From Hydrogenophaga sp. (lineage in GTDB: Bacteria; Pseudomonadota; Gammaproteobacteria; Burkholderiales; Burkholderiaceae_C), in contig NZ_JAOASO010000036.1 of assembly GCF_030158645.1 (NCBI RefSeq), forward strand, positions 1-64,000: a stretch of 64,000 nucleotides of DNA, read 5' to 3'. Positions 24,351-27,316 of this stretch are shown piece after piece. The notes beneath the pieces were generated by a model, which did no database searches, had not been told where the DNA came from, and saw nothing but the letters and a program-made list of their open reading frames with translations. The first letter of the stretch is position 1; each line of letters starts with the position of its first letter. The position numbers were made by a program, and so were the translations under genes.

Positions 24351-25178
24351 ATGAACACCCCCACCCACCCCACCATCACCTTCATCGGCGGCGGCAACAT
24401 GGCCAGCGCCATCGTCGGCGGCCTGCTCCGCCAGGGCCACCCAGCGAGCGCTTTGCAGATCGTCGAACCCTGGGACGAACAGCGCACCAAGCTCGTGCAG
24501 CAGTTCCCCGGCGTCTCACTCCTCGCCGCCGCCAGCACAGACTTGCGCGCCTCGGACCTCGTGGTCTGGGCCGTGAAACCGCAAACTTTCAAGGACGCTG
24601 CGCTGGCCAGCCAACCGCATCTGGGCAGTGCGCTGCACCTGAGCGTGGCCGCCGGCATCACCAGCGACAGCATGGCCGGCTGGCTGCACACGCAGCGCAT
24701 CGTGCGCGCCATGCCCAACACCCCGGCGCTGGTGGGCCTGGGCATGACCGGCCTCTTCGCCCGCGACGGCGCCAGCACCGCCGACCGCGCGCTGGTCGAA
24801 GCCGTGGTGAAGACCACCGGCGAGCTGGTGTGGGTGAGCGCCGAGCAACAACTGGACGCGGTGACCGCGCTCTCCGGCTCGGGCCCGGCCTACGTGTTCT
24901 ATTTCCTGGAAGCCATGCGCGACGCCGGCACCCGCATGGGCCTGCCGCCCGAGGTGGCCTACCAGCTCGCGGTCGGCACCTTCATCGGTGCGTCGACCCT
25001 GGCGCAGCGTTCGGACGATCCACCGCAGGTGCTGCGGGAACGTGTGACCTCCAAGGGCGGCACGACTTATGCCGCGCTCACGTCGATGGAAGCGGCGGGT
25101 GTGAAAGCCAAGTTTGAAGAGGCTCTGTTTGCCGCGCAGCAACGCGCTGCGGAGCTGGGGCGGGAATTCGGGAAGTAA
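24351..25178 (+). CDS. proC: pyrroline-5-carboxylate reductase
   Basis: This 275-residue protein makes the last step of proline synthesis. It has an N-terminal NAD(P)-binding motif (FIGGGNMASAIVGGLLRQGH) and the P5CR signature (ALSGSGPAYVFYFLEAMRDA) with VTSKGGTTYAALTSME near the end. The open frame is continuous with a long shadow frame through glpK; only the part from ATG 24351 is homologous. GACAAT lies exactly 6 bases before the ATG and no Shine-Dalgarno sequence is seen, so a leaderless message is possible. Confidence 0.95.
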   Translation: MNTPTHPTITFIGGGNMASAIVGGLLRQGHPASALQIVEPWDEQRTKLVQQFPGVSLLAAASTDLRASDLVVWAVKPQTFKDAALASQPHLGSALHLSVAAGITSDSMAGWLHTQRIVRAMPNTPALVGLGMTGLFARDGASTADRALVEAVVKTTGELVWVSAEQQLDAVTALSGSGPAYVFYFLEAMRDAGTRMGLPPEVAYQLAVGTFIGASTLAQRSDDPPQVLRERVTSKGGTTYAALTSMEAAGVKAKFEEALFAAQQRAAELGREFGK

Positions 25179-25193
25179 TCCCTTGGCGCTCGG

Positions 25194-25295
25194 CTCGCGG
25201 ACGCGGTGCGCTCTGCTCCGCGGCTGTCCCCCGCCAAGGGCTTTGCCCTTGGCTCCTCCTTGATGCCGCTGCGCAGAGCGCACAGCATCCGCGAG
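25194..25295. repeat. palindromic intergenic repeat, copy A
   Basis: This 102-bp element has imperfect terminal arms of 20 bases that pair at 18 positions (left CTCGCGGACGCGGTGCGCTC; right end GAGCGCACAGCATCCGCGAG). The inner hairpin CCAAGGGC-TTT-GCCCTTGG lies at about 25233-25251. Copy B at 26314-26410 is the same element in the opposite orientation. The two share GCAGCGGCATCAAGGAGGAG and GGGGGACAGCCGCGGAGCAG as conserved blocks between outer and inner stems. The stem sequences differ but stay paired. It has no open frame of its own and no recognisable transposase. Confidence 0.85.
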
Positions 25296-25422
25296 CGGGA
25301 TTGGCGGGCAAAGACGGTAGCGACGTCTTTGTAGAAGAACAAATTTGACCGAGAGTAAAAGTCGAACCCACAGCTAGGGTCAGCCTACCAAGCGAATGAA
25401 GGCGCAGGCTGGAGCATCGGCT

Positions 25423-26232
25423 TCACCGCACAAGTGGGACTGCAGCGCTCTCGTTTATGAGATGAATCGCTATCGCAATGTCAGTGGCTACCAGTAGCCT
25501 CTTGTCTTTGTGGTACTCGGTCACAACTCCGACAGCAGGCGTCCGAGATGGATCGTTTCTACCTTGTTCATCAAACAGAAGCCACAGGGGCGATCCACTC
25601 ATGCCATGCGGGTCTGCGATTTTCCGCTGTGTCCCGTCGGGAAAAGTCATGTTTGCAATATCTAGCCCGAGAACGATGTGATGGTCTTCTTTGAGTTCAA
25701 GGCTTCGGTAGTCATCTGAAGACGCCGAAACAATGCGAAAGCCTGACGGCTCAGATCGAAGTTGGCGGCTATGTGGGTTGGCTCGACTACGAGACTGAGG
25801 AAAACCCGTGACGAGGTAATGCTTTCCTTGGCGCGGAAGCTGAAAGGCACGCAGAGACGCGAATGCAAGTGGAACCTTCCGGATGCTTATTCCTGGTGGC
25901 CGCGCGTCTGACGCCAACTTGACGACGGCTACGTCGTACCGGTCGTTTGAAGGGGGGTTTGAATGAGGCTGTGTATGCAGGATGCTTCCGTACAGGCGAT
26001 GCAACGTACCGCGTTCTACATAGTAGGAAAGACCGCCTTGGTCATGGGCGTGATCCATCACGTGTCTCGCCGAAACAAAATAGTGCGTCCCCGCCTTTTC
26101 TACGAGCAAGCTCGTGCCAATGAGGACTGGTCGTCTGCCAGGACGGACATTGAAGAGCGGAACCACGTGCCGAAGGAGCACGTTCGCGTAATCAACTATC
26201 GCTTGATTGAAGCGATCGTGAACATTCGACAT
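25423..26232 (-). CDS. trypsin-like serine peptidase domain protein, low GC
   Basis: This 269-residue protein has a trypsin-like triad: H57 in YFVSARHVMDHA, D100 in RYDVAVVKL and S212 in HGMSGSPLWLLF. The oxyanion-type glycines are present. No signal peptide or membrane helix is visible, so it should be cytosolic. The substrate is unknown. Base composition is visibly different from the neighbours (30 G/C of 60 bases at 25441-25500, against 49 of 60 in glpK at 24001-24060). The gene is enclosed by two inverted palindromic repeats. Both facts suggest acquired DNA. The pattern resembles trypsin-like modules seen beside defence genes, but no partner gene is present, so that is not claimed. Confidence 0.8.
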   Translation of the reverse strand: MSNVHDRFNQAIVDYANVLLRHVVPLFNVRPGRRPVLIGTSLLVEKAGTHYFVSARHVMDHAHDQGGLSYYVERGTLHRLYGSILHTQPHSNPPSNDRYDVAVVKLASDARPPGISIRKVPLAFASLRAFQLPRQGKHYLVTGFPQSRSRANPHSRQLRSEPSGFRIVSASSDDYRSLELKEDHHIVLGLDIANMTFPDGTQRKIADPHGMSGSPLWLLFDEQGRNDPSRTPAVGVVTEYHKDKRLLVATDIAIAIHLINESAAVPLVR

Positions 26233-26313
26233 TAGGTTGCCGTCCGCTTCAGGGTGTTATGCGCCATCGTACTGCGGCAAAACAGATGGCACACACGCCC
26301 AACCGCCACCCTC

Positions 26314-26410
26314 CCCACGGACGCGGCGTGTCCTGCGCAGCGGCATCAAGGAGGAGGCGGCACCAGCCGCCGGGGGACAGCCGCGGAGCAGGGCACGCCG
26401 CGTCCGTGGG
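26314..26410. repeat. palindromic intergenic repeat, copy B
   Basis: This 97-bp element is inverted relative to copy A. Its 20-base outer arms (CCCACGGACGCGGCGTGTCC and GGGCACGCCGCGTCCGTGGG) pair at 19 positions. The inner hairpin is GCGGC-ACCA-GCCGC. The two conserved blocks shared with copy A are present in full. Against copy A, at least five outer base pairs are changed on both sides so that pairing is kept, and the inner stem is entirely different yet still pairs. It lies in the gap between the trypsin-like gene and ubiA. Confidence 0.85.
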
Positions 26411-26443
26411 CACGCGAGGCACCACGACCGAAACCCAGCGCGA

Positions 26444-27316
26444 TCAAACCAAGCTGAGGACAACGCCCAAGAACACGGTGAACCCCAACCAGTGGTTGAG
26501 GCGGAAGGCCTTGAAGCAGCCGTCGCGGCTGCGGTCCTTGATGAGCTGGAAGTGCCACACCACCTGGGCCAGCGCCACCACCAGCATGGCGCCCCACACC
26601 CACGGGTTCACCACGCTCCACAGCGCGGCCGTCCAGACCGCGAGGTACACGAGGTAGAACGCGGTGACTGCGGGCACGTCGTACGCGCCGAGCGTGATCG
26701 CTGAGGTCTTCATGCCGATGCGCAGGTCGTCGTCGCGGTCGACCATGGCGTACTCGGTGTCGTAGGCCAGCACCCAGAACAGATTGCCCAACAGCAGCAC
26801 CCAAGCCAGCGGCGGCACCTGCGCCTGCACGGCGGCGAACGCCATGGGCACGCCGAAGCTGAACGCCACGCCCAGCACCGCCTGCGGCATGGACACGAAG
26901 CGCTTGGCGTAGGGGTAGATGAGCGTGATGGCCAGCGCCCCGAACGACATGAGCACCGTGAGCGTGTTGGTGGTGAGCACCAGCACAAACGCCGCCAGCG
27001 CCAGCACCGCGCCCACGGCCAGCGCCTCGCGCGTGGACACCTTGCCGGACGTGACAGGGCGCTGCGCGGTGCGCTTGACGTGTTTGTCGAACTCGCGGTC
27101 GGCCACGTCGTTCACGCAGCAGCCGGCGCTGCGCATGAGGATGGTGCCGAGCACAAACACCGCCACCAGGTGCCAGCCGGGGAACCCGCCGGCCGCCACC
27201 CAGAGCGCTGCCAGCGAGGGCCAGAGCAGCAGCAACCAGCCGGCCGGCCGGTTCCAGCGGATCAGGTCGAGGTACAGCGCAAGGCGCGAAGGCGCTGGGG
27301 ACGTCGCAGCGACCAT
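26444..27316 (-). CDS. ubiA: 4-hydroxybenzoate polyprenyltransferase
   Basis: This 290-residue membrane enzyme joins the polyprenyl chain to 4-hydroxybenzoate in ubiquinone synthesis. Both Asp-rich motifs are seen: [15 protein letters not shown] (residues 69-83) and [17 protein letters not shown] (185-201). About eight to nine membrane helices are predicted from the hydrophobic pattern. No chorismate lyase gene (ubiC) is adjacent. It is followed on the same strand by no near gene; dps lies 10 bases upstream of its start. Confidence 0.95.

Follow-up and report, generated by a model that had tools for sequence, protein, structure and literature searches.

Paired hairpin repeats with conserved pairing and variable stem sequence at the Hydrogenophaga proC–ubiA locus and in related bacteria

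Two imperfect hairpins, here called copies A and B, lie in inverted orientation between the convergent genes proC and ubiA of a Hydrogenophaga genome, in a window that comprises the whole 64,000-nucleotide stretch of DNA analysed. They belong to a family of repeats whose arms pair and covary on one strand, which occupy some orthologous sites and not others and tend to lie at gene 3′ ends, and we judge, with a probability of about 0.5, that they form a REPIN-like element that an enzyme acting in trans recognises in the form of a single-stranded hairpin. A and B would be the halves of one such element of about 320 bp, built from two inverted imperfect hairpins of about 96 nt each.

Structure of the repeat unit

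Copy A (25194..25295), the left half of the pair, has its purine-rich strand on the minus strand and copy B (26314..26410), the right half, on the plus strand; the initial annotation had taken them for one element in opposite orientations at these positions, with two blocks identical between them, CTGCGCAGCGGCATCAAGGAGGAG and CGGGGGACAGCCGCGGAGCAG, and this is what we find. Covariance-model matches cover 25197-25292 on the minus strand for A (98.1 bits) and 26317-26407 on the plus strand for B (87.9 bits), scores that are not independent because both copies sit in the 49-copy model. In the model alignment the outer stem is formed by arms of 20 nt, the 5′ arm at 25273..25292 and the 3′ arm at 25197..25216 in A (minus strand), and at 26317..26336 and 26388..26407, respectively, in B (plus strand). 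The pairing claimed for these arms holds, with Watson–Crick pairs at 16/18 positions in A and 17/18 in B in a fixed register, and the covariance-model alignment has one non-standard outer pair in A and none in B. Between the arms, the core pattern together with the alignment places a conserved unpaired block, AAGGAGGAG, at 25253..25261 in A (minus) and 26348..26356 in B (plus), and another, CGGGGGACA, at 25225..25233 (minus) and 26371..26379 (plus). These enclose a variable apical hairpin, CCAAGGGC..GCCCTTGG in A (25234..25252, minus) and GCGGC..GCCGC in B (26357..26370, plus); the two are unlike in sequence and each is still paired, as had been noted from A and B alone.

Read along the purine-rich strand, the unit consists in its 5′ half of an outer arm of about 18-28 nt, GCA, a 5-bp stem, ATM, AAGGAGGAG and the variable apical hairpin, and in its 3′ half of CGGGGGACA, the 5-bp stem, GGA and the second outer arm. 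In 21/49 copies the 5-bp stem has non-standard pairs at its two middle positions, which appear, by eye, as two opposed G·A mismatches. Four main registers occur in the family, in 123, 56, 22 and 17 of 250 copies. Because the search patterns contained both blocks, the near-invariance of AAGGAGGAG and CGGGGGACA is partly imposed; the stems were absent from all search patterns, and their sequence and pairing were seen only by the copy-A BLAST query and the model searches.

Covariation and the folded strand

Compensatory changes between A and B had been read as a sign of selection for a hairpin, a claim that the family bears out and narrows to the purine-rich strand alone. In an alignment of 49 copies, made up of 47 of the 49 non-redundant copies in the 11/8 register (L150 and L196 being left out) and the two window copies, covariation of the outer stem is 0.876, against 0.202 with shuffled partners and 0.09-0.14 with slid partners. 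Both sides have changed at 20/20 pairs, and 97.4% of cells pair, a percentage that is inflated because the copies had been pre-chosen for at least 14/18 pairs. Where pairing played no part in the choice, 237/250 copies reach at least 13/18 Watson–Crick pairs in their best register, whereas arms swapped between copies and re-registered do so in only 63/991 cases; the register was chosen per copy for best pairing and the same procedure was rerun on the swapped arms.

On the purine-rich strand of 241 copies, i.e. the 250 minus nine with fewer than 10 pairs, G·T occurs 345 times against 21 for A·C, and G·A 97 and G·G 34 times against 7 for C·T and 5 for C·C; among 122 non-redundant copies there are 169 G·T and 14 A·C. 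A G·T on the purine strand is an A·C on the other, and the fold under selection is therefore that of the purine strand, as RNA or as single-stranded DNA. A cruciform would be expected to treat both strands alike. The G·T:A·C counts are 46:5 for copies sense to tandem genes (34 copies), 61:2 for antisense copies (41), 92:8 in convergent settings (69) and 15:1 in divergent ones (10); since the bias to one strand is present whichever way the neighbouring genes run, it argues for single-stranded DNA and against read-through mRNA, which is not a likely carrier.

Copy number and distribution

Many copies with covarying stems were expected of a structured mobile element by the initial annotation, and they are present both in the host genome and in its relatives. 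The covariance model identifies 13 copies of the hairpin of about 96 nt in the own genome, arranged as six inverted pairs and one single copy, 11 of these 13 matches being already part of the model. BLAST with copy A places copies on five other contigs of the same genome, including several inverted pairs about 130 bp apart. The core pattern AAGGAGGAG-N(6-36)-GGGGACA has 12 matches in the own genome and its reversed control has 0; this contrast, together with covariation over 250 copies, counters the alternatives that A and B are the sole copies or chance palindromes. In a sample of 60 genomes (the own genome, 35 of the genus and 24 from other families of the order) the core pattern matches in 32, namely the own genome, 30/35 of the same genus and 1/24 of the others, with at most 46 matches in one genome, compared to a single match of the reversed control over all 60.

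A class-wide draw, searched with the covariance model under stricter filters, gave matches in 3/185 genomes, these being the own genome, a further one in the genus and one from a different family. At least 120 stretches with matches came from a scan of named genomes, and the 80 titles among the matches listed are mostly Comamonadaceae and other Burkholderiales, with a minority of Xanthomonadales (Thermomonas, Luteimonas, Stenotrophomonas, Xanthomonas) and a handful of matches probably due to chance. One pair from the genome G027 partially matches three Variovorax plasmid records, in regions for which those records list no genes, and had no match when searched against phage. A record titled Bacillus subtilis SK7B5 (L160:1235-1265, 1549-1579) carries two copies whose type was otherwise encountered in Stenotrophomonas, and may be mislabelled or contaminated.

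Pairs as mobile units

Copies arranged as ‘−/+’ pairs have less than 220 bp between their cores in 53/61 cases and more in 8/61, in a set of stretches mostly 3-8 kb long from which very wide pairs could escape; among 54 pairs pre-chosen for 60-220 bp, the cores lie a median of 117 bp apart. In G027 many of the pairs closely resemble one another. Nine pairs from this genome and one from elsewhere can be aligned over roughly 320 bp, beginning at about TTTC and ending at about GAAA, and their flanks are unrelated. Over all pairs these ends are weak, with GAAA in 53/108 outer flanks against 36 after shuffling.

The suggestion that the element is a non-autonomous mobile repeat is supported by pairs that are present at some orthologous sites and absent at others. 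When the flanks of four of the five other pairs of the own genome were searched against 40 genus genomes, element-free sites, recognised by a contiguous flank match, were seen among the matches listed in at least five genomes at site 4, at least two at site 3 and at least three at site 1. In other genomes among the matches listed the gap is near 315-365 bp, and in several it is about 60 to 210 bp, which may reflect remnants. In the five genomes with an empty site 4, the ends of the two genes are separated by 0 to about 40 bp (the second stop codon read by eye), and no target-site duplication was readable.

Pairs lie mostly at gene 3′ ends: 17 of the 36 with a resolved gene context are between convergent genes, 16 between tandem and 3 between divergent genes, with 6 further pairs unresolved. 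Where a single copy lies between tandem genes, its orientation is sense in 17 cases and antisense in 20. These gene calls follow a simple GC3 rule and are approximate, and copies near locus ends were skipped (10 in the genus, 30 elsewhere).

A copy lies in frame inside a gene that by eye is mpl, at the same place in three genomes (L048:175-205, L123:1029-1059, L166:7590-7620), where the insert peptide is ..VRSAQ[IV]KEEPA.RAGDTE..; at L036:1501-1531 the mpl frame runs on the strand opposite to the copy and the insert is read in the opposite sense. In L046, L053 and L058 (1501-1531) a single short-register copy is located just upstream of a conserved frame starting MYELGVVYRNIT, away from gene 3′ ends. 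At L060:1970-2180 in G023 a pair seemingly lacks its middle, the left copy abutting, by eye, the 3′ arm and tail of a right copy.

The proC–ubiA locus and its cargo

In the window, the left neighbour of the pair is proC (pyrroline-5-carboxylate reductase; 24351..25178, plus strand) and the right neighbour, convergent with it, is ubiA (UbiA prenyltransferase family; 26444..27316, minus strand). The pair encloses an insert of 1011 bp (GC 0.54) with a gene for a 269-aa trypsin-like protein (25423..26232, minus strand), which matches Trypsin_2 of Pfam with an E-value of 1.5e-5 and 26.2 bits, below the curated cut-off of 27.6, and displays, by eye, a GxSGSP motif.

The proC–ubiA interval was read in 55 genomes of the genus, and ubiA was reached in 49. 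Sites empty of the element or of the gene, the latter named by the initial annotation as a sign of a mobile element, do exist: 21 gaps of at most 136 bp have no copy, and one of the 28 gaps of at least 204 bp (G011) holds the pair without cargo. Of the remaining wide gaps, six have A and B around cargo, three A only, one B only and 17 no recognised copy, among which G001, G010 and G023 start, by eye, with a cut copy A. The six inserts (G000, G024, G063, G065, G067 and G083; GC 0.47-0.63) have interiors that are unrelated by BLASTN. That of G063 contains a DDE transposase, a CcdB-family gene lies behind the cut copy A of G023, and the cargo protein of G024 has only weak beta-propeller matches in Pfam, where five other cargo proteins (from G083, G065 and G032 and two from G070) have no match. 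Considered as possible defence genes, seven cargo proteins gave no PADLOC match and six no NCBIfam match.

The borders of the inserts are partly kept. The inner border adjoining A (25296..25344) is like that of 2/5 other species with different cargo, and the one adjoining B (26230..26313) like that of 3/5. For the window's insert, likeness beyond 300/300 shuffles is found in the left 45 nt with G065 and G067 and not with G024, G063 and G083, and in the right 80 nt with G024, G067 and G083 and not with G063 and G065. Across the six inserts the left 45 nt are alike in 8/15 species pairs and the right 80 nt likewise in 8/15, judged against 300 shuffles, and two inner control stretches are alike in 0/30 comparisons. 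The border stretches detected by BLASTN are short and common only among the five inserts other than the window's. One border motif, considered as a general cassette end, was found once in 1.77 Mb of collected sequence, and the right border of G024, used as query against 66 genus genomes in a search insensitive enough to have missed the window's own border, gave four matches, namely itself, two at proC–ubiA and one that is chance-like.

In six species the inserts between A and B are unrelated, and in one the pair stands empty; the trypsin-like gene has therefore most likely been added to a pair that was already in place. The idea that the inverted pair mobilised the gene between them fares poorly, as 53/61 pairs are short and five of the eight wide ones are at proC–ubiA itself; the others are L174, L180 and L212, in which no transposase is seen by eye. 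Loci L060 and L061, considered as cargo pairs, turned out on reading to be separate copies, and the partner of the one in L060 has decayed. Cargo exchange would in principle need no more than homologous recombination in proC, ubiA and the borders. The proC–ubiA gap often takes up foreign DNA in the genus, with or without recognised palindromes (window 25178-26444 and loci L230-L282 and L349-L368), so that uptake need not depend on the pair.

Paired change at orthologous sites

At site 3 of the own genome (contig C94), 19 orthologous stretches comprise five with both copies, ten with one recognised copy and four with none. Copy B of this site, compared in 14 species including the own, has a Watson–Crick fraction of 0.896 against 0.506 when shuffled within columns, with 20 G·T and 0 A·C, and at least two pair types occur in 20/20 columns, 3/14 rows being in another register, which mixes columns. 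One position is A-T in G000, G·T in G071 and G-C in G028, and this series, taken with the turnover of pair types, indicates that paired change continues at fixed sites and passes through wobble. At proC–ubiA, copy A is less variable in 10 species (0.880 Watson–Crick against 0.760 shuffled), and copy B in seven species has 0.864 against 0.587, with 9 G·T and 3 A·C, a weaker bias. Paired change in place on this scale is more than an inserted selfish copy would require; it hints that the element has a use for the host or that copies repeatedly convert one another.

Y1/RAYT genes

Transposases of the Y1/RAYT type are widespread in the genomes studied, PF01797 matching in 30/36 genus genomes including the own (32 matches at 30 loci; usually one gene, with two matches in two genomes) and giving 27 matches at 27 loci in 19 genomes behind 20 loci. 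The palindrome is beside 0/30 and 0/27 of these loci, which cover 57 of the 59 matches and about 1.5 kb on each side, less at contig ends. Three scanned proteins match NF047646, two of them above the cut-off, and that of the own genome scores 76.1 bits against 80. A tblastn search of 23 genus RAYT proteins against 120 named-genome loci gave one match, about 5 kb from a copy. A RAYT might act on the element in trans.

By motif search, 8/30 genus Y1 loci have their own inverted repeats of the type TAATYGGGGTCAGATTCCAATTA, unrelated to the element. Y1/RAYT-like genes bracketed by such repeats are present in L082, L084, L085, L086, L087, L088, L091 and L104 within the genus and in L290 and L295 outside it, and some adjoin, by eye, a gltB-like gene.

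Relation to known systems

Among described systems, REPINs and the TIRYT-associated repeats (PMC3733652) are the nearest, and no paper describing the element was found in the open-licence literature. Like REPINs and REP/BIME repeats, it consists of two inverted palindromes at a set spacing, is non-autonomous, and lies at gene 3′ ends and sometimes within genes (PMC3733652); a single-stranded hairpin is also the substrate in the REP system (PMC6006769). It differs from REPINs in its units of about 96 nt instead of 20-40, in its two conserved internal-loop blocks and almost sequence-free outer stem, in having no copy near any of the 57 Y1 loci read, and in lacking a GTAG/GTGG tag. The REP rule (PMC6006769) calls for the tetranucleotide GT[AG]G at 0-2 nt on the 5′ side of the hairpin, whereas GGAG precedes the apical hairpin in 49/49 copies, all found by patterns that hold GGAG.

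The inverted repeats associated with TIRYTs (TIRtrons; Di Nocera et al. 2013, PMC3733652) are unrelated to GTAG REPs, and some are self-complementary and in dimers, as at Stenotrophomonas ORF 1152. Their consensus GGGGWSAS resembles GGGGACA in the element core, although the last position of the consensus is matched by G or C in only part of the copies; unlike TIRtrons, the element flanks none of the 57 Y1 loci read, and 8/30 genus Y1 loci carry TAATYGGGGTCAGATTCCAATTA-type repeats instead. Stenotrophomonas also carries the element (L131), so the ORF 1152 repeats, compared here by description alone, could be the same, which would lower its novelty. Rickettsia palindromic elements (RPE), which end in a CGTC tag (PMC3733652), are likewise palindromic repeats in frame inside genes, as the element is in mpl, in a different arrangement. 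A MITE would have terminal inverted repeats and a target-site duplication; TTTC..GAAA ends are present in most of the ten aligned pairs, and no duplication was readable. Integron attC sites keep structure while sequence is free, have unpaired identity bases and are used as one strand; by eye, the element has no RYYYAAC/GTTRRRY pair, and its repeats are inverted, not direct. In Rfam 15, no family exceeds its gathering score over 24900-26800, the best being mir-4436 with 23.6 bits against 74. No terminator-like site lies at A or B; there is one at 25486-25499, inside the insert.

Mechanism and alternatives

TnpA-REP, the RAYT transposase that moves REPINs and REP/BIME repeats, uses one strand. 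In the REPIN-like reading, the hairpin toward the 3′ end of each DNA strand would fold once that strand is single-stranded, and an enzyme acting in trans would read the unpaired AAGGAGGAG and CGGGGGACA on the paired scaffold and cut or join there, so that the stems may drift while their pairing holds. A pair would have landed between the convergent proC and ubiA, foreign DNA would later have entered its central spacer, with cargo differing between species, and the trypsin-like gene would be a passenger in the window's species. Against this stand the failure to find a mobilising enzyme (0/57 Y1 loci with a copy, and other repeats at 8/30 genus Y1 loci), the fact that no transposition was observed, the weak ends over all pairs and the paired change at orthologous sites. 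More tentatively, the family may be an undescribed class of paired structured repeats across Burkholderiales and Xanthomonadales, with a purine fold selected per site and read by a single-strand-binding enzyme or a host protein, and with a pair centre that acts, at one locus or more, as a place where differing, mostly orphan genes are exchanged between partly kept borders.

A structured RNA, whose transcripts would carry the purine-strand hairpin as, for example, a 3′-end stabiliser or roadblock, could serve both genes of a convergent pair, because transcription entering the repeats from one side or the other meets a purine hairpin last. It would fit the tolerance of G·T (G-U) beside strong covariation, the favoured gene 3′ ends (17 pairs in convergent, 16 in tandem and 3 in divergent settings) and the structure kept at orthologous sites. 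It appears doubtful, because tandem single copies are 17 sense to 20 antisense and the antisense ones have the same bias, 61:2, on crude gene calls; within 25100-26500 neither a sigma-70-like promoter nor a terminator-like site lies at the palindromes, and no Rfam family is over threshold. Orthologous copies that stay paired while their arms turn over (0.896 against 0.506, with G·T 20 to A·C 0, for copy B of site 3) would also suit a DNA site used by the host, e.g. by a nucleoid or repair protein on the single strand, that spread in the past and is now selected at each place. We consider this rather unlikely, as the pattern is missing from 5/35 genomes of the genus and the element from several orthologous sites, so that no single site is needed, and G027 holds many alike pairs.

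Template switching that corrects imperfect palindromes could maintain pairing by mutation alone and would fit arms that are long and nearly perfect despite sequence turnover; it has no evident reason to spare G·T over A·C on one strand, 12-16 fold, and the internal loops remain unpaired, making it very improbable. The least probable reading, a composite transposon that had A and B as its termini and brought in the trypsin-like gene, draws on the bracketing of the gene by inverted copies and on the insert GC of 0.54. It is largely refuted: 53/61 pairs have no gene, the eight wide ones comprise five at the same locus and three others, cargo pairs in the 61-pair set occur at proC–ubiA only and not at different places, and in other species the same A and B surround inserts unrelated to this one, and in G011 no insert at all.

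Significance

The proC–ubiA interval offers a natural series of an empty site, a pair, and a pair around six unrelated inserts. Strong conservation of structure with free sequence, on a single strand and in both gene orientations, is a convenient marker for a signal in single-stranded DNA, or in an RNA made by the element itself. It renders several points testable, namely what reads the signal, whether a REPIN-like system needs GTAG or a neighbouring RAYT, and why orthologous copies re-pair.
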